Shown piece by piece: positions 2,861-53,730 of a stretch of DNA of 64,000 nucleotides (position 1 is the stretch's first letter; every line of letters begins with the position of its first letter). Where the stretch lies: assembly GCA_019637335.1 (NCBI GenBank), contig JAHBVV010000004.1:268471-332470 (forward strand), written 5' to 3'. The notes beneath the pieces were generated by a model. It was not told where the DNA came from. It saw only the letters and a list, made by a program, of their open reading frames with translations, and did not search any database. Source of the DNA: Candidatus Hydrogenedentota bacterium (lineage in GTDB: Bacteria; Hydrogenedentota; Hydrogenedentia; Hydrogenedentales; JAEUWI01). A program made the translations under genes and the position numbers.

Positions 2861-5563
2861 ATGCCGTTTCCCAAGCGCCTTTCTCCGCACGCCAGCCTGT
2901 TTTTGCTTGTGCTGGCGTTCTTTTTTGTTTCCGGGGCCTGTGGCCTGCTGTACCAGGTCGTCTGGACGCGCAAGCTCGTGCTGCTCTTCGGGACGACGTC
3001 TTATGCGGTGAGCACGGTGCTCTCGATCTTTTTTGTCGGTCTGGGTGTGGGCAGCGTGTGGGGCGGGCGGATTGCCGACCGGACTTCACGACCGCTCTGG
3101 TGGTACGGCGTCTTCGAATGCATTATCGGGGTCTGGGCGCTGTTCTTCATCGCTTCGATCCTGTATGGCGAGGGCCTGGTGGTCGCGCTGTTGAAGGAGT
3201 TTCAGTTTTCGCGGGCGATGGGTGTGGGGCTGCGGGCGCTGCTGGCGCTGGTCCTGCTGTTCGTCCCGGTTTGCCTGATGGGCGCCACGCTTCCGTTGCT
3301 GGCGCGTTTTGTGACGCGGGAATCGTCGGTGCGGGGCATGCCCATTGGCGCGCTGTACACGCTCAACACCCTCGGGGCGGTGGCGGGCTGTTTCGTGACG
3401 GGTTTTTTCCTGATCGCGCGATTCGGATACACGCAGACGACGTTGATTGGCGCGGTGGCGAACATTGCCGTCGGCGTGGCCGCCTGGGCCGTGTCGCGGC
3501 GGCACGAGACCGCGGGCGCGCGAGACGACGCCGTGGCGGTCGCGGTGGCGGGGCCGATAACGCCGTGGCAGTACCTCATCATCGGCGTGTTCTTCCTGTC
3601 CGGGTTCTGCTCGCTGGGACTAGAGGTGTTGTGGACGCGGCTGCTCTCGATCATCTTCCTGGGCACGACCTACGCCTACACCAGCATGTTGACGACGCTG
3701 CTGCTGGGGATTGCGCTGGGCAGCGCGGCGGCCTCGCTGGTGGTGGATCGGCTTCGCCAGCCGGCGCTCCTGCTGGCGACCTCCCTGATTGCGACGGGCG
3801 CCGGAAGCATTTACATGCTCGGAATTCTGGGCGATATGCCCGCGCGGGTGATGGAATTGCAGGGGGGCAGGGGCGGCGACTGGGGGGCGGTCGTGCGCGG
3901 GAAGTTTTTCCTGGCGTTTCAGGCGCTGTTCATTCCGACCTTCTTCCTCGGGATGACCTTTCCGCTGGTGGTGAAGGCGGCGAGCCGGCATCGCGAGACG
4001 CTCGGGCGCGATGTGGGGCGCTTGTACTGCGCGAATACGGTGGGCGGCGTGCTGGGGTCCATCGCGGGGGGCTTCCTGGCTATCCCGCTGCTGGGGACGC
4101 ACGGCGGCATTGTGTTCTTCGGGCTGGTCCTGGTTGGATCGGGGCTTGCCGTGGTGCTGGCGGGCCGGGACTGGGGCCTGCCGGCCAAGGTGGCGGGGGC
4201 CGTGGCGTGCGCCCTGCTGCTGGCGATCAGTTTCCGGCGCGCGCCGGAAGATGTGAACCGCGCGCTGACCGCGGGGTACATCCCCGAGGATCACCGTGTG
4301 ATCCATTACGCGGAGGGCGTCGAGGGCACGGTGGCGGTATCGGAGCCGGCGGACGATAGCTCGGGGGCCGACCGGGTGCTGTGGATTAATCGCGTGCAGG
4401 CGACCACATCGATCGAGAAGGGGGTGAAGATGAATCGCCTGCAGGGGGTGCTGCCGCTGCTGTTCGACCGGGATCCGAGGGACGTGCTGTTCATGTGCTT
4501 CGGATCGGGGATCACCTGCGGGACGCTGGCGCTGTCGGATTTTGAACGGATCGACGCGGTGGACATCTCGGCGGAGGTACTGGCGGCGGCGCCGTATTTT
4601 GAAACGGACAATCTGGGGGTGATCGAGCGGCCGGAAGTCACGTTTCACGTGGACGACGGGCGGAACTTTCTGCTGACGTCCCCGCGCGGCTACGACGTGA
4701 TCACGTTTGAGCCGATGCCGCTCGCGCTGGCGGGCGTATCCACGTTTTACACGCGGGAGTACTATGAACTCTGCCTGGCGCGGTTGAATCCGGGCGGGCT
4801 GGTGTCCCAGTGGATCCCGCTGCACAGCCTGAACCCGGAAATTGTGCGGTCGCTTGCGCGGACGTTTACGACCGTCTTTCCGCACTATACGGCCTGGTTT
4901 ATCAATGCGGATCTATTCTTGATCGGATCCGGCACGCCGCTTCACCTGGACGCCGCGCGCATTCAGGCGCACTTTGAAAATCCGGCGCTCCGGCAAGCGC
5001 TGGAGGACGTGGGCTTCTACGATATTGAGTCGGTGGTGGCGTGCTACCTGATGGACGAAGCGGGGCTGGACGCGTTTGTCGAAGGGGGATCCATCATGCG
5101 GGACGACCTGCCGTGGGCGGAGTTTGAGGCGCCGAAGCTGGTCTATTCGCGGACCCAGGCGGAGTCCATAAGGGAGATCGAGCAACACATGACAAGCCCC
5201 GTTCCGCTGTTTGGCCCGGAGGCCGACCCGGCGTTGCTAGCGCGGATCGAGCGGCGCCACCAGGCGCACAAGCATGACATGAAGGGCCTGCGGGAGTATT
5301 ACGGGGGCATGCTGATGGGATCGCGCGCGCCGGATCTCTTCCTGGAGTCGCTCGATATCGATCCGACGGACTGGAACGCGCAGTACTACCTGCGCGAAAT
5401 CGGCCGGATCCAGGGCGAGATGTATCTGCGCTGGGTGGAATACGACGCCGGTATCGAGATCCTGGAGCGGATTCTGGCGCGCATGCCGGGTGACGAAACG
5501 TTGCAGCCGGTCTATGAGGCGCTGTTGCGCGCAAAGGCGGAGGAGGGCGTGGCGCGGGATTAA
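2861..5563 (+). CDS. Fused MFS-like membrane protein / spermidine-synthase-like methyltransferase-fold protein
   Basis: About 900 residues. The first ~480 are very hydrophobic with repeated membrane segments and the pattern GACGLLYQVVWTR that opens the fused MFS/spermidine synthase family; the second half carries a Rossmann SAM/decarboxylated-SAM fold with FGSGITCG as the nucleotide loop and DDGRNFL further on. The catalytic Asp-containing loop of true aminopropyltransferases is replaced by EPMPLA, so polyamine synthesis should not be assumed. The C-terminal ~150 residues are helical and TPR-like. ATG 2861 is chosen; TTG 2852 is an equally placed alternative with better spacing from the AAGAGAAGAG at 2834. 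The stop overlaps the convergent next gene by 4 bases. Confidence 0.8.
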   Translation: MPFPKRLSPHASLFLLVLAFFFVSGACGLLYQVVWTRKLVLLFGTTSYAVSTVLSIFFVGLGVGSVWGGRIADRTSRPLWWYGVFECIIGVWALFFIASILYGEGLVVALLKEFQFSRAMGVGLRALLALVLLFVPVCLMGATLPLLARFVTRESSVRGMPIGALYTLNTLGAVAGCFVTGFFLIARFGYTQTTLIGAVANIAVGVAAWAVSRRHETAGARDDAVAVAVAGPITPWQYLIIGVFFLSGFCSLGLEVLWTRLLSIIFLGTTYAYTSMLTTLLLGIALGSAAASLVVDRLRQPALLLATSLIATGAGSIYMLGILGDMPARVMELQGGRGGDWGAVVRGKFFLAFQALFIPTFFLGMTFPLVVKAASRHRETLGRDVGRLYCANTVGGVLGSIAGGFLAIPLLGTHGGIVFFGLVLVGSGLAVVLAGRDWGLPAKVAGAVACALLLAISFRRAPEDVNRALTAGYIPEDHRVIHYAEGVEGTVAVSEPADDSSGADRVLWINRVQATTSIEKGVKMNRLQGVLPLLFDRDPRDVLFMCFGSGITCGTLALSDFERIDAVDISAEVLAAAPYFETDNLGVIERPEVTFHVDDGRNFLLTSPRGYDVITFEPMPLALAGVSTFYTREYYELCLARLNPGGLVSQWIPLHSLNPEIVRSLARTFTTVFPHYTAWFINADLFLIGSGTPLHLDAARIQAHFENPALRQALEDVGFYDIESVVACYLMDEAGLDAFVEGGSIMRDDLPWAEFEAPKLVYSRTQAESIREIEQHMTSPVPLFGPEADPALLARIERRHQAHKHDMKGLREYYGGMLMGSRAPDLFLESLDIDPTDWNAQYYLREIGRIQGEMYLRWVEYDAGIEILERILARMPGDETLQPVYEALLRAKAEEGVARD

Positions 5564-46384: not shown

Positions 46385-46492
46385 CACAAATCACCTCGCA
46401 AAAAGTACGGCTCACACAACGCCCCCGCAGTGTAGACCGCCCCCGCCCCCCAGTCAACGCCCACGGCCCGCCGCAAAACCCACCGCGAAAAG
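46385..46492. other. Start of the repeat-filled spacer after the HEAT sulfatase gene
   Basis: The region from here to 47088 (about 700 bases) carries no credible gene. This first part holds nothing recognisable; the remainder is the 197-base tandem repeat. Confidence 0.4.
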
Positions 46493-47013
46493 AAAGTCGC
46501 ACAGGCTCATGACGCGCCGGAGGCGGGCGTCCCGCCTGTGTTCAACCCCGAAAGGCGCAAACGTAGGATAGGCGTCCCGCCTGTCCAAAGCGCCGCGAGG
46601 CGCAACAGGATCGCGGACATTCGTGTCCGCGGCAACGTGAGCCCACCGCCAAAAGTTCCCCTAACCCCACCAAAACCACCCCGAAGGGAAAGTGGCACAG
46701 GCTCATGACGCGCCGGAGGCGGGCGTCTCGGCTGTGTTCAACGCCGAAAGGCGCAAACGTAGGATAGGCGTCCCGCCTGTCCAAAGCGCCGCGAGGCGCA
46801 ACAGGATCGCGGACATTCGTGTCCGCGGCAACGTGAGCCCAACCCCAAAAGTTCCCCTGCCCCCCCACCAAGACCACCCCGAAGGGAAAGTGGCACAGAC
46901 TCATGACGCGCCGGAGGCGGGCGTCTCGGCTGTGTTCAGCGCCGAAAGGCGCAAACGTAGGATAGGCGTCCCGCCTGTCCAAAGCGCCGCGAGGCGCAAC
47001 AGGATCGCGGACA
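46493..47013. repeat. Tandem intergenic repeat, period ~197 bases, about 2.6 copies
   Basis: Copies begin with AAAGTNGCACAG at 46493, 46689 and 46887. Each contains GACGCGCCGGAGGCGGGCGT, GGATAGGCGTCCCGCCTGTC and GCGCCGCGAGGCGCAACAGG, each an internal inverted repeat, and ends with GTCCGCGGCAACGTGAGCCC and a CCACCAAAACC tail; the third copy stops early at ATCGCGGACAT. Copies differ by only a few bases. Related single copies are at 18.72-18.85 kb and, more distantly, 40.88-40.93 kb. Confidence 0.92.
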
Positions 47014-47088
47014 TGCCCGACTCCCCGCATCCCAGGGTATACTACGCTCCATACCCCCGGGCCACCGAACCGCGCGAAAGGAGCGGCC

Positions 47089-47433
47089 ATGAACACCCGA
47101 ATCGAATACCTCTACCGCGACGCACACAACTACAAGACCTTCGGCGAAGCCGTCCTCCGCGGGGCGCTTTCGCCGGAGGAAGTCCAGCCCTGCTACCACG
47201 AAAAAACCTGGTTCCTCCCCGAAGAAGTCGGCCTCGACGGCCTCCAGGAACACCCCACCACCAGCGCCGACCACGTCTGGCACGAAATCATCGCGCTCCA
47301 ACCCACCCCCGAGCCACCCACCACCCCCCTGACCGCCCACGCCTTCCTCCAGCGCATGAAAGCCGCCGCCAATGCCCGCTGGGACACCCCTGCCGTGCGC
47401 CAACGGATGATGGAGATCGCCTGCGGGGAATGA
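47089..47433 (+). CDS. Hypothetical protein
   Basis: A 114-residue soluble protein I cannot place in a family. It opens with TRIEYLYRDAHNYKTFGEAVLRG, has the phrase WFLPEEVGLDGLQEHPTTSADHVWHEI cut at the dipeptide DG, and ends in a helical, Arg-rich tail. The composition and codon use fit the host. AAAGGAG lies 6 bases before ATG 47089 and a TATACT hexamer 46 bases upstream (47038-47043). The N-terminal half reads like small uncharacterised proteins seen in defence and plasmid neighbourhoods; it borders the accessory island that starts at 47.5 kb. Confidence 0.65.
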   Translation: MNTRIEYLYRDAHNYKTFGEAVLRGALSPEEVQPCYHEKTWFLPEEVGLDGLQEHPTTSADHVWHEIIALQPTPEPPTTPLTAHAFLQRMKAAANARWDTPAVRQRMMEIACGE

Positions 47434-47577
47434 AGCGTGCGGTGTAGGCGCGCCCAGAGGAGAATCCACCAGTAAACGACGGTCTACTTTCGTAGCATGT
47501 AAAAATAGACTCTCTGGTGGTGTGGAACTCATCAAGTTGAGGGATTTGTGGCCCATAGCCACGCGTAAAGGGCCCTA

Positions 47578-48084
47578 TCATCTTGTCATCGATCTCGCGA
47601 GGCAGTGTATGATTTCCTTTCCGTCCTCGTAGGCCTTTACGACTTCGTCGAATGTGGCAGTAGTGTTTATTTGACCCTCATGGGCAAATTGATTTCGCCA
47701 AGCAATCATGTTCGCGTACGAGTTCCTTATATTCCTTTTGTATTGACGGAGGTGATCTTTTTCTTTCTTTTCAACGTTCAGACAGAACCTATTCACGTAC
47801 TTTTGACCGAAACGCGGTATATATTCTTCCTTGATATCCTTGACCCGGATTCGGCCATTTATCCGACTGAAGTGCGACTCGGCGTAATGACCAAAAATCC
47901 TATGTTTTTTCTGCGAAAATGATATAAAAATTTCTTTTATCGCTAACTCATATACCGTCACCCCGGCTATCGACGCAAATCCCACATACTTAGGACTCAA
48001 GAGCGGATCGCTAAGTGTTGGAACTAAGTCGCGCCAGTGGGCAATGATATCATCTGCATGCTCAAAGTGGTGTTGGTATTGCAT
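47578..48084 (-). CDS. HEPN-domain putative RNase
   Basis: A 168-residue, helix-rich protein with the HEPN catalytic signature R130-N-Q-F-A-H135 (R-x4-6-H) in AWRNQFAHEG, and the usual helix before it. It resembles the MAE_28990/RiboL-PSP group of HEPN proteins, which act as metal-independent RNases in toxin and antiphage systems. Its ATG follows the TAA of the DUF262 gene with no base between, so the two are translated together. The gene is far AT-richer than the surrounding chromosome, a sign of recent acquisition. The stop at 47578 is followed by no clear terminator. Confidence 0.8.
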   Translation of the reverse strand: MQYQHHFEHADDIIAHWRDLVPTLSDPLLSPKYVGFASIAGVTVYELAIKEIFISFSQKKHRIFGHYAESHFSRINGRIRVKDIKEEYIPRFGQKYVNRFCLNVEKKEKDHLRQYKRNIRNSYANMIAWRNQFAHEGQINTTATFDEVVKAYEDGKEIIHCLARSMTR

Positions 48085-49173
48085 TTACTGGTCCAGCAAT
48101 GCTCTGCACACGATTGTCAGTCTATTGTTAACTGTCTTTGTGTCCGTTGTGTTCACTGTGGCAGCGTCAATGAAGTCCTGGTCTTGGCGAAGGTGCTCAA
48201 ATCTCTTCTTAAGATTTCGGGATCCTGTCAGTTTTCTGTGATTCTCTATACATACAGACATCACCGAATCAAGGACGGAAATGTTTAATGGGCCTCGAAT
48301 ATGAAATGGACGCTCTCCAAGGTTTCGAACGACAAGATCTGTCACAATGGGGAAAGCCTTGAAGAACTCCCGTACTTTTGAAGTCTTGCCACTGCGGTGC
48401 TTCCCCATTTCGACATTGAGAAACTCCTTCATGGGCTTCTCATAACCTCCCGCTGAACCGACAAGCGAGAATACCCTTAGGATGAACTCCACATCCCTCA
48501 GATGCTTATCGATGTTCTTGCGCCCCAAGATCTTTCGCCAATTGGGATCCGTGTTTGCTTCTTTGAGCAACTGGCAGAATTCACCACGGAACACGCAATT
48601 GCGAATTTCTTGGGGCTTCAGTGGAACGCCACCAGTGTTCAATCGTTCAAAAATATGGTACGCGCTCGTGCTCTCCCCAATTGGGCGTAATTGCTTTATG
48701 TTAATCGCGCGAAGGACTGACTGCTTCAGTTTCCGCTGATCGGATTCTGCCAGCTCGTCAAATGTCCTCCTATTAAAGTGATTGTTCTCTCCAATACCGG
48801 TCAGTCGGAACACCTGTCGCTTTCCATGAGTGCTTTCCTTCCCGAAGTAGCCCTCAAGGTAGAATACAACACTTAGTATTCTCTGCTGGCCATCAATTAC
48901 TATGTTTTTGCTGTCTTCGTCGACATAGAAGAACACCGGTGGAACCGGAAGCCCTCGAAGGAACGAGTCAATTAGCAAAGACGATTGCTTGATAGACCAT
49001 ACGAATTCGCGCTGGTAATCTGGAATTTCTATATCCCCGTCGATCCACATCTGAGAAATTCCAGAGAGCGTAAAATCAGAGGGATATGTGGCAATCTCGT
49101 AATTTACACTAACTTCCGCTTCGTCTTCTTCACTTTCAGTTTCCAGGTCGTTCTCGTCATCAGGTGCAGACAT
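48085..49173 (-). CDS. DUF262 (GmrS-like) protein paired with the HEPN gene
   Basis: A 362-residue protein. After an acidic N-terminal 25 residues comes the DUF262 domain: IPDYQREFVWSIKQ, the ParB/Srx-like nucleotide motif DGQQR at 94-98, and FERLNTGGVPLKPQEIRN. In GmrSD-type restriction systems DUF262 domains bind and hydrolyse NTP and sense modified phage DNA; they also occur with HEPN or other effectors. The start 49173 is preferred because AGGAAG lies 8 bases upstream; ATG 49191 is the alternative. The ~280-base spacer beyond it is AT-rich with no gene; it probably holds promoters for both directions. Confidence 0.85.
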   Translation of the reverse strand: MSAPDDENDLETESEEDEAEVSVNYEIATYPSDFTLSGISQMWIDGDIEIPDYQREFVWSIKQSSLLIDSFLRGLPVPPVFFYVDEDSKNIVIDGQQRILSVVFYLEGYFGKESTHGKRQVFRLTGIGENNHFNRRTFDELAESDQRKLKQSVLRAINIKQLRPIGESTSAYHIFERLNTGGVPLKPQEIRNCVFRGEFCQLLKEANTDPNWRKILGRKNIDKHLRDVEFILRVFSLVGSAGGYEKPMKEFLNVEMGKHRSGKTSKVREFFKAFPIVTDLVVRNLGERPFHIRGPLNISVLDSVMSVCIENHRKLTGSRNLKKRFEHLRQDQDFIDAATVNTTDTKTVNNRLTIVCRALLDQ

Positions 49174-49454
49174 TACGTGGCTTCCTATCATAGTAGCAAG
49201 TCGTCAAAACGCTGTTTCAATGCATACCAAGGTTACGATTTTGACCTAACGATTTCAACATGGTCGTGAGAAGTGTACAACGTGCAGACGTATAGACAAA
49301 TTGCAACTAATGACGCCGAACCGTGCCGGGTTTGTTACAGCGCTCGATAGCATTAGTAATTTGCTCTGAGCTCGCTAGATACGTTCTCGCAATGCCGGTT
49401 GGTCGTTTTGCCTCTTAGAGCCTACAATGTCAACCACGAGTACCCAGAAGTTAC

Positions 49455-49892
49455 ATGCACAAGCCCCGCAAATCATGGACCCGCGAGGAACTCATCCTCG
49501 CGATAAACCTCTATTGCAAGACCCCATATGGGAAGATCCATATGCGGAATCCCGAAATAATCCGCTTTGCACAACTCATTGGCCGAACGCCCAGTTCGAT
49601 CGTATTCAAGTTGTCGAGTTTTGCCAACATCGATCCCGCGTTGCCGCGCAAGGGTTATGCCAATGTCAGCAAACTCGACCGTGAAGTTTGGGCGGAGTTT
49701 TCTGCGGATTGGGACAGGATGGTATTCGAAAGCGAACAACGGCTGGCGGCGTTAACGGATAAGTCGCTGGAGAGGTCGCGCGGGAGGAGGCGGATATTCC
49801 GCTGCCGGAGGAGGACATCCCCCTCCCCGAGGGCAGGACGTGCGAGGCGGTGGTCCGGCAGCGGGTGAACCAGGGTTTTCCGGCGGGCGGTG
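49455..49892 (+). pseudogene. Truncated, frameshifted HNH endonuclease gene
   Basis: Encodes the N-terminal recognition part of the HNH protein found intact at 51747-52535 (shared WTREELILAINLYCKTP, RNPEII, GRTP, SKLDR). The frame is broken near 49770-49790: beyond it the frame that matches the intact protein continues as EEDIPLPEGRT and VVRQRVNQGF in a different phase, and the homology stops dead at GGCGGGCGGTG (49892), before the HNH motif. The reading frame that remains would give a 137-residue protein with a meaningless Arg-rich tail. The first ~300 bases are clearly diverged from the intact copy (about two thirds identical residues), but the last ~85 bases are nearly identical. Confidence 0.85.
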
Positions 49893-49913
49893 GACACACA
49901 ATCCATTTATTTC

Positions 49914-49942
49914 TTGACAAACCGCCGCCTAAATTGTGAAAT
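49914..49942 (+). promoter_or_regulatory. Promoter of the deaminase gene
   Basis: Consensus TTGACA (49914-49919) and TGAAAT (49937-49942) with a 17-base spacer; the gene starts 45 bases downstream. It lies only ~20 bases after the break in the truncated HNH gene, so the module brings its own promoter. Confidence 0.6.
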
Positions 49943-49986
49943 TAGAACCACAACACATGTAATCCGTATTAATTGGGGCAAAAAAC

Positions 49987-51483
49987 ATGGGCGTTTCGAG
50001 CGAGAGCTTCTCGGGCTATAGCAAGTCCGAGCTTGTAATCGGGCTTGTAGGAGCGGTTGGCACCGACCTAGACGGCGTCATAAAGGTCTTCTCGGATCGA
50101 CTTCGGGGCTTCTCCTATGAAGCTCAAACGGTCCATATTTCCGAGCAAATCATCAAAAAAATCGCGGCCGTAAAGCGGTATTCCAAAACCGACAAGGCGG
50201 CACGTATAAATGCTCTCATGGACGCAGGAAATGAAGCCCGCAGACTTACCGGCGACAATGCGATTCTCGCCTTTGGAGTTGCCGCCCGGATCTCACAGGA
50301 GCGCGACAAGCCTCTTGAGCCAAAGGCCCGAAGCGCCTTTCTCATCCGGTCGCTAAAGCACCCTGACGAAATCCACGCGCTCCGGGACATTTACGGTGAC
50401 GGGTTCTACGTCGTGGGGGTATATGAGGAGAAAGACCTTAGGACAAAACACTTGATTGAGGATGACCAGATTTCTCTTCCAAAGGCCAAAAAGCTAGTGG
50501 AACGAGATGAAGACGAGCACATGGAGTTCGGCCAAAGGACCAGGGATACATTCCAACTTGCCGATTTCTTTGTGGATGCCGGAGCACCCGAGGAGCACCG
50601 TAAGAATTGCGTTCAGCGCATACTGGACATTCTCTTCGGACAGGTCTACAATACGCCAACTTTTGACGAATTCGCGATGTTCATGGCGTTCTCGTCCGCG
50701 CTGAGGTCGGCCGATCTCTCGCGCCAGGTCGGCGCCGTGATTGCCAGGGACGACGAAATTCTTTCCATGGGCGCCAACGACTGTCCCAAGTTCGGCGGAG
50801 GTCTTTATTGGCCGACCATGAACTATAAAGGTGTGGTGGCCGATGCGCCAAAAGGTAGGGACCACACACGCGGTTGCGACTCGAATAAGATCGAAAAGGA
50901 TAAAATCGTCGACGACATTCTTGGAAGCGTTTCTGACTTCCTGAAGGAGGGTGTCGATGAAGCGGTCGTAAAACGTTCAATCGCACGGAGCAGCATAAAC
51001 GACATCACGGAATATGGGCGTGTGGTCCATGCCGAAATGGAAGCCATACTTTCCTGCGCCCGGCAGAATATGAGTACCCGTGGCGCAACACTCTACTGCA
51101 CAACATTTCCCTGTCACAACTGCGCAAAACACATCGTTGCGTCAGGAATCAGGAGAGTTGTCTATGTTGAGCCGTACCCGAAAAGCAAAGCCTTGCAGTT
51201 TCACGATGATTCAATCAAACTGGACCTTACAACGTCTGGAAAGAGAACTACGAGCAAGACCAAGGTGCTCTTCGAGCCGTTCGTGGGTATCGGTGCGAGG
51301 CGATTTGCCGAGCTCTTCTCGATTCACACCGGATCGGGAAAGCCGCTGAGACGCAAAGATGCTGAAGGCAAGACCCTGACGATTGCCAGGAAAAGTGCCA
51401 AACTCAGAGTACAGATGTTGCCGGTTTCGTACCTGGAAAAAGAACTTGAAGCATCAAATATATTTTTGAACCATATTAGGTGA
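49987..51483 (+). CDS. Antiphage dCTP/dCMP deaminase-type protein
   Basis: A 498-residue two-part protein. The N-terminal ~200 residues open with ELVIGLVGAVGTDLDGVIKVF, a P-loop-kinase-like start in which the Walker A GxxxxGK is not intact. The C-terminal half is a zinc cytidine/deoxycytidylate deaminase: H348-A-E350 in VVHAEMEAI and C376-H-N-C379 in FPCHNCAKH. This layout matches the antiphage deaminases that convert dCTP or dCMP to the uridine form when phage infects, starving the phage of nucleotide. Composition is AT-richer than the host. A small gene follows 8 bases later. Confidence 0.85.
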   Translation: MGVSSESFSGYSKSELVIGLVGAVGTDLDGVIKVFSDRLRGFSYEAQTVHISEQIIKKIAAVKRYSKTDKAARINALMDAGNEARRLTGDNAILAFGVAARISQERDKPLEPKARSAFLIRSLKHPDEIHALRDIYGDGFYVVGVYEEKDLRTKHLIEDDQISLPKAKKLVERDEDEHMEFGQRTRDTFQLADFFVDAGAPEEHRKNCVQRILDILFGQVYNTPTFDEFAMFMAFSSALRSADLSRQVGAVIARDDEILSMGANDCPKFGGGLYWPTMNYKGVVADAPKGRDHTRGCDSNKIEKDKIVDDILGSVSDFLKEGVDEAVVKRSIARSSINDITEYGRVVHAEMEAILSCARQNMSTRGATLYCTTFPCHNCAKHIVASGIRRVVYVEPYPKSKALQFHDDSIKLDLTTSGKRTTSKTKVLFEPFVGIGARRFAELFSIHTGSGKPLRRKDAEGKTLTIARKSAKLRVQMLPVSYLEKELEASNIFLNHIR

Positions 51484-51491
51484 TAGAGAAA

Positions 51492-51680
51492 ATGAGCAAA
51501 TCTTCACGGGCCGCTTCAAAAGCGAAGTCGAATTCACAGGACGCATTTATGGCGCATCTGGAGTACGCGCGGAAACAAGTGTCAAGCTGGCCGACCTGGA
51601 AGCAGAATACCCTTGCCCACACGCGCCCGGCGAAGTCGGGTGGTTCCGCTTCCACGGCTGCATCGCCGAAACGCAAGTAG
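51492..51680 (+). CDS. Small WPxWKQ protein downstream of the deaminase
   Basis: A 62-residue basic protein. The middle reads FMAHLEYARKQVSSWPTWKQ, and both ends are Ser/Ala/Lys-rich and probably disordered. The W-P-x-W-K-Q motif after an amphipathic helix is one I associate with very small proteins encoded in defence loci; I cannot name a family. It begins 8 bases after the deaminase stop, so the two should be co-expressed. The ATG 51492 is preferred over the start at 51480, which would overlap the deaminase gene. Confidence 0.6.
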   Translation: MSKSSRAASKAKSNSQDAFMAHLEYARKQVSSWPTWKQNTLAHTRPAKSGGSASTAASPKRK

Positions 51681-51746
51681 CGTACGTGGATCGTGGCATG
51701 TGTATTGGCAGGTTCGAATCAGCCGTTCATTTGAGCGGAGCCCCAC

Positions 51747-52535
51747 ATGCCTAAGCCCTCCAAGCCCTGGACCCGGGAGGAGCTCATCCTCGCAATCAAT
51801 CTCTACTGCAAGACGCCGTTTGGGCGGATCCACATCCGGAATCCCGAGATCATTGCGCTGGCGGAGCTTTTGGGGCGGACGCCGGGGTCGGTGAGCTATA
51901 AGCTGGCGAATTTTGCGGCGATTGATCCGTCGTTGCCGCGCAAGGGGGCGTCGAACGTGAGCAAGCTGGACCGGGCGACTTGGGCGGAGTTTTTTGCGGA
52001 TTGGAACGGGATGGCGTTTGAGAGCGAGCGGCTTTGGGCGGAGCGCACGGGGAAAGCGCTTGGTCCGGTGGCGGATTCAGGCGCGGCGGCGGCTGGCGCG
52101 CCGCTGTTGGAGGAAGACATCCCCCTCCCCGAGGGCAAAACCCGCGAGGCGGTGGTCCGGCAGCGGGTGAACCAGGGGTTTTTCCGGCGGGCGGTGTTGT
52201 CGTCGTATGACGGGGCGTGTTGCATCACGGGGCTGGCGGCGCCGGAGTTGCTCGTGGGAAGCCATATTGTGCCGTGGGCGGCGGATGCGGGGAACCGGAC
52301 GAATCCGCGGAATGGGCTTTGTTTGAATGTGCTTCACGACAAGGCGTTTGACCGGGGGCTGATCGCGGTGGATGCGGATTTCCGGGTGGTGGTGTCGCCG
52401 CGGGTGCGGAAGCTGGGGATGGCGGGCGCGCGGGCGGTGTTGGAGGTGGAGGGCGCGGCGTTGCGGATGCCGCGCCGTTTTCTTCCGGACCCGGCGCTGC
52501 TGGCGTGGCATCGGGAGCGGGTGTTCAGGGGTTAG
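51747..52535 (+). CDS. HNH endonuclease
   Basis: A 262-residue protein. The N-terminal ~100 residues (WTREELILAINLYCKTPFGR, RNPEIIALAELLGRTPGS) are a conserved helical domain common in this restriction-like family; the C-terminal part is an HNH nuclease: CCITG, SHIVPW with His173, NPRNGLCLN, and LHDKAFDRG with His197. GGAG is 7 bases before ATG 51747. GC content is as high as the host's, unlike the deaminase and HEPN/DUF262 genes. It is followed by a terminator hairpin. Together with the truncated copy at 49455 it brackets the deaminase module. Confidence 0.9.
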   Translation: MPKPSKPWTREELILAINLYCKTPFGRIHIRNPEIIALAELLGRTPGSVSYKLANFAAIDPSLPRKGASNVSKLDRATWAEFFADWNGMAFESERLWAERTGKALGPVADSGAAAAGAPLLEEDIPLPEGKTREAVVRQRVNQGFFRRAVLSSYDGACCITGLAAPELLVGSHIVPWAADAGNRTNPRNGLCLNVLHDKAFDRGLIAVDADFRVVVSPRVRKLGMAGARAVLEVEGAALRMPRRFLPDPALLAWHRERVFRG

Positions 52536-52707: not shown

Positions 52708-53523
52708 TTATTCTACCACGGGCGGGGCGGGGGGCGCCTGGGGAATTCGGTCCGGGCGGCGCTGCGCGCGCACTTCCTCCATCCGCTTTTCGTGGAACGC
52801 GTTGTACTCCGCTTCCGTGACCGCGCCGTCGCCATCCGCGTCCAGTTCCGAGAAGGCGGGCGGGCCGAAGGGACGCCGCGGGCCGGGGGCGCCGTCGGGG
52901 CCTTCGCCCATGGGGCCGGGGCCCGGGAATTCGGGCCGGGGCGGGCCCTGGCGGAAGTCGCCGCCACGCCCTTCGGGCCGCGGACCCTGCGCGCGCGGGC
53001 CATCAGCGCGTTTCATCCCTTCCGGCCCGGGACGCCCAGCGCCCTCGGGGCCGCGACGAAAGTCGCCGCGCTCCGGGCGATCGCCGCCCTCGGGGCCGCG
53101 CCGGAAGTCGCCGCGCTCCGGGCGATCACCCCCCTCGGGGCCACGCCGGAAGTCGCCGCGTTCCGGGCGATCACCCCCCTCGGGGCCACGGCGGAAGTCG
53201 CCGCGTTCCGGGCGATCGCCGCCCTCGGGGCCGCGCCGGAAGTCGCCGCGTTCCGGCCGATCACCGCCCTCGGGGCCACGCCGGAAATCGCCGCGTTCCG
53301 GGCGATCGCCGTCGCGCCGCGGGGCGGGCCGCTCGGCAAGCGTCAGGGGTTCGCCCGGCAATGCGGCGGGGGCGTCGAGCGCCGCCGCGGGCGCCGGGGG
53401 CTGAATGGCCTCGGGCGCGCTTTCCTGGGCGGCCGCGCCGGACGCCATGCCCATCGCGCCCATCACCAGCGCGCCGCAGGCCAGGCGGGCCGCCATTTTC
53501 TCTATCCGTTCGATTCTGCTCAT
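52708..53523 (-). CDS. Exported EF-hand protein with 15-residue Arg/Asp-rich repeats
   Basis: A 271-residue precursor: signal peptide ending GMASGAAAQ, a Pro/Ala linker, six near-perfect copies of a 15-residue unit GGDRPERGDFRRGPE, a Gly/Pro/Arg-rich stretch and a C-terminal EF-hand, FSELDADGDGAVTEAEYNAF. The repeat is highly charged and should be extended and disordered in the periplasm. GGAGG stands 8 bases before ATG 53523; the frame is open to 53607. Proteins of this type are common in planctomycete-like genomes with no known role; calcium binding is the only supportable function. Confidence 0.78.
   Translation of the reverse strand: MSRIERIEKMAARLACGALVMGAMGMASGAAAQESAPEAIQPPAPAAALDAPAALPGEPLTLAERPAPRRDGDRPERGDFRRGPEGGDRPERGDFRRGPEGGDRPERGDFRRGPEGGDRPERGDFRRGPEGGDRPERGDFRRGPEGGDRPERGDFRRGPEGAGRPGPEGMKRADGPRAQGPRPEGRGGDFRQGPPRPEFPGPGPMGEGPDGAPGPRRPFGPPAFSELDADGDGAVTEAEYNAFHEKRMEEVRAQRRPDRIPQAPPAPPVVE
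53041..53310. repeat. Coding minisatellite, six 45-base units
   Basis: Six head-to-tail 45-base units within the EF-hand gene, differing by a few silent or near-silent changes (CGCCGCCCTCG, CACCCCCCTCG at the unit edges). Copy number is likely to vary between strains. Confidence 0.93.
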
Positions 53524-53730
53524 GGTACCGTCCTCCGGTGGTTGTTGCGCCCGATTCCGGGCGGGCTTCACAGTCTTTCCCGATGGCGCCGCCGCCATCT
53601 GTCCCAACTGTAACCGGCGAAGATGACAGGCCCGCCGGAGGATTCATTACAACTTCGTAATCTTGGGCTTCCCGCCGCGTGTTTGTTAGGATGGCGGGCA
53701 GACTCGATTTCCCAACCGGAGCAGACCACG

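Follow-up and report, generated by a model that had tools for sequence, protein, structure and literature searches.

AvcD deaminates dC nucleotides, starving the phage, and is restrained by the AvcI RNA until host transcription stops (PMC10511110, PMC12409362). PD-T4-2 is reported to consist of a DUF262 protein and a HEPN protein of family PF18735 (PMC10952713). Predicted relatives of both lie close together in the window, the stretch of 64,000 nucleotides analysed here (G000:C4:268471-332470, from a 7.2-Mb genome), next to an HNH endonuclease gene (Table 1). It is probable that a ~4.2-kb defence cassette was inserted into a resident two-gene unit, between its genes ORF114 and HNH, and that a mosaic HNH pseudogene (HNH') lies inside the cassette. 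We infer the direction and order of these events, as well as every biochemical function given below.

Table 1. Features of the locus (window coordinates)
Feature	Position	Strand	Evidence
ORF114, 114 aa, resident partner gene of HNH	47089..47433	+	GC3 0.83; adjoins HNH in G001, G003
Low-GC block, inferred inserted cassette	47461..51610		Maximum likelihood change-points, GC 0.49 vs 0.67
Predicted RiboL-PSP HEPN protein, R-x4-H (RNQFAH), PD-T4-2-like pair gene 2	47578..48084	-	PF18735 E=5e-15
Predicted DUF262/GmrSD_N protein, IDGQQR motif, PD-T4-2-like pair gene 1	48085..49191	-	PF03235 E=3e-29
HNH' pseudogene, frame-broken N-terminal ~145 codons	49455..49892	+	tblastn; identity and GC comparison with intact HNH
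Predicted anti-phage dCTP deaminase; N-terminal half kinase-like, deaminase C-terminal; HAE + PCHNC	49987..51483	+	NF041025, PADLOC dCTPase
WPxWK microprotein gene, putative deaminase partner, probable ATG 51492	51480..51680	+	Homologues at same position in 49/80 deaminase loci
Intact resident HNH endonuclease gene, HNH_2 at C-terminus	51747..52535	+	PF13391, PADLOC PDLC04132

Composition and borders of the low-GC block

Two change-points were fitted by maximum likelihood to GC over 40-58 kb of the window. The best pair, at 47461 and 51610, separates 49% GC inside from 67% outside (2dLL 431) and flanks exactly the interval from ORF114 to HNH, the left edge being 28 nt past the ORF114 stop codon. 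The sequence-only reading had placed the shift in composition between the two HNH genes; the shift is real but has these other edges, the HNH-to-HNH bracket reaching a 2dLL of only 188 as a GC partition. Values of GC3 follow the same division, with 0.50-0.65 in the genes for HEPN, DUF262, HNH', the deaminase and the small ORF, and 0.80-0.87 in ORF114, intact HNH (GC 66%, GC3 82%) and every flanking gene. This partition assigns HNH' to the foreign side and intact HNH to the host side, and the fall of GC and GC3 inside the block supports the horizontal acquisition that had been proposed for the module.

The block extends beyond the deaminase module to the HEPN and DUF262 genes (GC 44-47%), which are divergently oriented and placed between ORF114 and HNH'. 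Its GC is uneven, 45% on the left and 52% on the right, so that two successive insertions are possible. The block ends have no direct or inverted repeats beyond chance (the best is a 7-nt match), no tRNA was found to mark them, and no integrase, transposase or recombinase is present among the ORFs examined. A transposon or integrative element was considered and rejected on these grounds.

Two repeat arrays lie in the vicinity. Directly left of ORF114, at 46471-47060, a GC-rich repeat of 196 nt is present in three head-to-tail copies, and a search of the genome gave 126 matches scattered genome-wide. At 52708-53607 (minus strand) a gene for an EF-hand protein contains a run of 45-nt repeats coding for RGDFRRGPEGGDRPE-type units.

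The resident ORF114-HNH unit and the mosaic HNH pseudogene

The phylum was represented by 68 genomes of a single order. Two relatives of the same genus, G001 and G003, have a single full-length HNH each, with nothing inserted before it, as the sequence-only reading had anticipated. Their HNH proteins are 82% (81% at the DNA level) and 66% identical in amino acids, respectively, to the intact HNH of the window. Two ancient, separate HNH genes, an arrangement that would speak against an acquisition, were not found: each relative that has a full-length HNH has just one, except G059 with two, and the genome of the window and G001 add fragments only.

ORF114 belongs to no Pfam family and was found in only 5 of the 68 genomes, in one of them (G002) at a contig end; its search on plasmids gave two weak matches. 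It lies immediately upstream of HNH both in G001, with a gap of 28 nt, and in G003, with a 4-nt overlap (ATGA); in G062 ORF114 comes straight after the final codons of an HNH gene. These arrangements indicate that ORF114 and HNH are probably neighbours as a rule, the order with ORF114 directly upstream being that of two relatives (G001 and G003). In the window 4.3 kb separate them. ORF114 represents an unclassified 114-aa family that may stand before or after its HNH partner and possibly forms a two-gene HNH system with it. The outer flanks of the three ORF114-HNH sites are unrelated, which argues that the HNH unit is itself mobile within genomes and makes the empty site an inferred rather than an orthologous one. 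An orthologous empty site was sought through the sulfatase and ceramidase neighbours, which were found in relatives but unlinked to HNH there. No HEPN-DUF262 pair adjoining HNH was found elsewhere in the phylum.

The gene order described by the sequence-only reading, broken 5' HNH, deaminase, small ORF and intact HNH, is present and entirely on the plus strand. HNH' is of the same family as the intact gene, far above chance (tblastn E=5e-44), with 69% amino acid identity over residues 1-105; residues 105-145 continue in a second frame with a stop, and the catalytic HNH_2 domain is missing. Intact HNH matches PF13391 (E=1e-13) and PADLOC HNH (PDLC04132, E=9e-88), and no further HNH copy of this family was found in the whole genome.

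Comparison with the resident gene divides HNH' in two. The 5' part (49455-49752) is 71% identical, with 51/99 third positions conserved, while the tail (49805-49892), only 88 nt long, is 92% identical, with 26/29 third positions conserved (Fisher p=2e-4 for third positions, p=2e-5 for all positions). The G001 gene, taken as a control, shows no such step relative to the resident gene (66/99 and 18/29), and the tail of HNH' is closer to resident HNH than is this orthologue from the same genus. At the switch the GC of HNH' rises from 52% to 75%, the 5' part having 62% GC in resident HNH, and a protein motif is doubled (EADIPLPE then EDIPLPEG). HNH' is a mosaic of a diverged low-GC 5' homologue and a resident-like tail, as would be expected from recombination, or from templated patching, of a diverged HNH with one of the resident type. 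The match of the tail to the resident gene (90% versus 51% of third positions) shows that HNH' did recombine with a resident-type HNH, as had been suggested. The bracket formed by the HNH copies is real, but these copies do not delimit the module, whose left border stands 2 kb further left, at ORF114. In the HNH tree HNH' groups with the resident and G001 genes, so that a common group is recovered for both copies while their finer branching is unsettled on ~100 residues.

Three other origins of this arrangement were weighed. The tail could be filler copied from the nearby HNH during end-joining, rather than homologous exchange; the patch is short, its junction is at a short repeat and mobile-element ends are absent, but it keeps the register of the corresponding stretch of HNH' and recombination between genes is simpler, which leaves this origin rather doubtful. 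Tandem duplication of resident HNH, with decay of one copy to HNH', insertion of the deaminase between the copies and separate arrival of HEPN-DUF262, is unlikely. It would account for the 92% identity of the tail, and tandem copies do arise, as in G001, where a 3' remnant of a second HNH (L042 8403-8483) lies ~300 bp downstream of the intact gene, is 91% identical to the HNH of the window and has duplicated downstream sequence. A local duplicate would not be expected, unless very old, to show 51% third-position identity over the 5' two thirds, nor 52% GC where the resident gene has 62%. The independent G001 remnant shows that incomplete copies of HNH arise repeatedly at such loci.

The sequence-only reading had also considered an incoming HNH-deaminase unit that replaced part of resident HNH. 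Recombination at the 5' end would then make the HNH copies the borders. This model agrees with the common orientation and family of the copies and with the mosaic junction within HNH', yet it is very improbable. Foreign composition continues past HNH' for 2 kb to the left, as far as ORF114, and after a single crossover the left copy should be resident-like at its 5' end, whereas its resident-like part is the tail. Moreover, a set of 80 further deaminase loci was taken from named genomes, with flanks of 6 kb for most and shorter ones where a contig ended; no HNH of the family in question is present in these flanks, nor an ORF114 or a noteworthy HEPN-DUF262 homologue. The HNH-deaminase association is therefore local history and not a conserved system, and a pre-existing unit of the two is not supported.

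The acquisition first envisaged was right in kind but wrong in its borders and in the proposed HNH-deaminase unit. In the insertion between ORF114 and HNH that we favour, the cassette would have comprised the PD-T4-2-like DUF262 and HEPN pair, the remnant of a diverged second HNH, the deaminase and a translationally coupled microprotein. The HNH remnant may have arrived with the low-GC DNA or been trapped by it; its last 88 nt would have been exchanged with a copy of resident HNH at the repeated IPLPE codon motif, and the remnant would then have decayed. Such an insertion would supplement the resident HNH nuclease with a system of nucleotide depletion and with a PD-T4-2-like pair.

The deaminase and its downstream microprotein

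The predicted identity of the deaminase as a member of the anti-phage dCTP deaminase family, already proposed from the sequence, is upheld by NF041025 (462 bits for a cut-off of 400, positions 1-432 of 437) and PADLOC dCTPase (E=1e-162). The zinc deaminase motifs are present as VHAEMEAI and FPCHNCAKH, and their motif residues do not vary across an alignment of 64 sequences. A relative modelled with AlphaFold2 (pLDDT 92) has structural matches among dCMP deaminases and adenylate-kinase-like folds. By analogy with characterised relatives, it most likely converts dCTP/dCMP to deoxyuridine nucleotides on infection, which would starve phage replication. Only 94 nt separate the HNH' pseudogene from the deaminase gene. 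The promoter formerly read there found no backing, a consensus scan upstream giving none and no excess over shuffles. A comparison confined to the models of Rfam gave no RNA match. The same genome codes for a second predicted anti-phage dCTP deaminase (G000:C32:13048-14553, L044) with 55% identity.

The small gene noticed after the deaminase is a real ORF which overlaps the deaminase stop codon. An ORF of 50-75 aa with the motif W-P-x-W-K follows the deaminase in 49 of the 80 loci, starting mostly within ~25 nt of the deaminase stop, and this pairing is conserved across many phyla. A microprotein profile searched against six frames of all fetched loci matched at the post-deaminase position only; it was built from the same loci, and its training sequences match by construction. 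Values of pN/pS of 0.40-0.50 in five sets of relatives argue that the microprotein is translated and under selection. The Methylocucumis deaminase (L077) carries the module as a C-terminal fusion, modelled as helices (pLDDT 74-89); the L044 deaminase has a 40-aa C-terminal extension with WKEWK, judged by eye an apparent second fusion. The pair is also present in E. coli P4-type satellites, where the small gene is annotated as hypothetical; one such pair is the deaminase WP_044686932.1 and the small protein WP_000021256.1. A fully supported clade of 20 in the deaminase tree is wholly devoid of the microprotein.

The microprotein most likely regulates the deaminase, either as an inhibitor released on infection or as a sensor subunit. 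We put forward, tentatively, that a large branch of the anti-phage dCTP deaminases has in it a dedicated second component that was overlooked, an inhibitor or a sensor of infection that would replace the RNA antitoxin, and that jumbo-phage copies could mimic it and disarm the enzyme. Stand-alone copies of 37-38 aa occur in the jumbo phages Kaldavass of Erwinia (L186 3010-3126) and XbC2 of Xanthomonas (L187 2995-3108); these peptides match the consensus of the deaminase microproteins and are possibly mimics or anti-defence peptides. WPxWK is also found inside larger proteins of phage 15G (L189 ~3990-4093) and Pantoea phage AAS21 (L190 2303-2779), and the flanks retrieved for these contain no deaminase. 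The WPxWK domain accordingly extends beyond the deaminase system, and its role as a dedicated partner has to be claimed with more reserve.

Comparison with described systems

The HNH scar suggests that defence genes can stack into an existing operon without a recognisable mobile element, here in a little-studied phylum, probably Hydrogenedentota. The deaminase-microprotein pairing is a more general result than the history of the locus. Searches treat dCTP deaminases as single genes, and assays omitting the downstream ORF of 50-70 aa may have overlooked a factor that holds the deaminase inactive or signals the phage. No prior report of a deaminase-linked microprotein was found in the open-access papers searched.

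The C-terminal HNH_2 domain of intact HNH is common to a group of endonucleases that includes phosphorothioated-DNA restriction enzymes (NF045808). Assignment to the latter was rejected, since the match to NF045808 covers the C-terminal half only and reaches 61.5 bits against a full-length cut-off of 180; the N-terminal half, unlike NF045808, is a separate family (PDLC04132).

The HEPN and DUF262 genes resemble PD-T4-2 in having both domains adjacent on the same strand, with IDGQQR and R-x4-H kept, and form a predicted defence pair. In composition (PF03235 + PF18735) the pair agrees with PD-T4-2, but specific models for both genes do not identify it as such: the DUF262 protein scores higher as PADLOC NsnA (E=2e-60) than as PD-T4-2_A (E=1.5e-47), and the HEPN protein has no PADLOC match. 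It is for this reason named PD-T4-2-like only.

The microprotein has no convincing match in solved structures, Pfam or NCBIfam. PHROG 38465, to which no function is assigned, matches 36 of the 49 deaminase-linked microproteins, and its name does not record the link to dCTP deaminases. The deaminase is akin to AvcD in its full-length NF041025 match above cut-off, its intact motifs and its kinase-like N-terminal half. While AvcD is described with the RNA antitoxin AvcI upstream (PMC10511110, PMC12409362), the deaminase gene of the window has a space of only 94 nt before it and a WPxWK microprotein gene after it.
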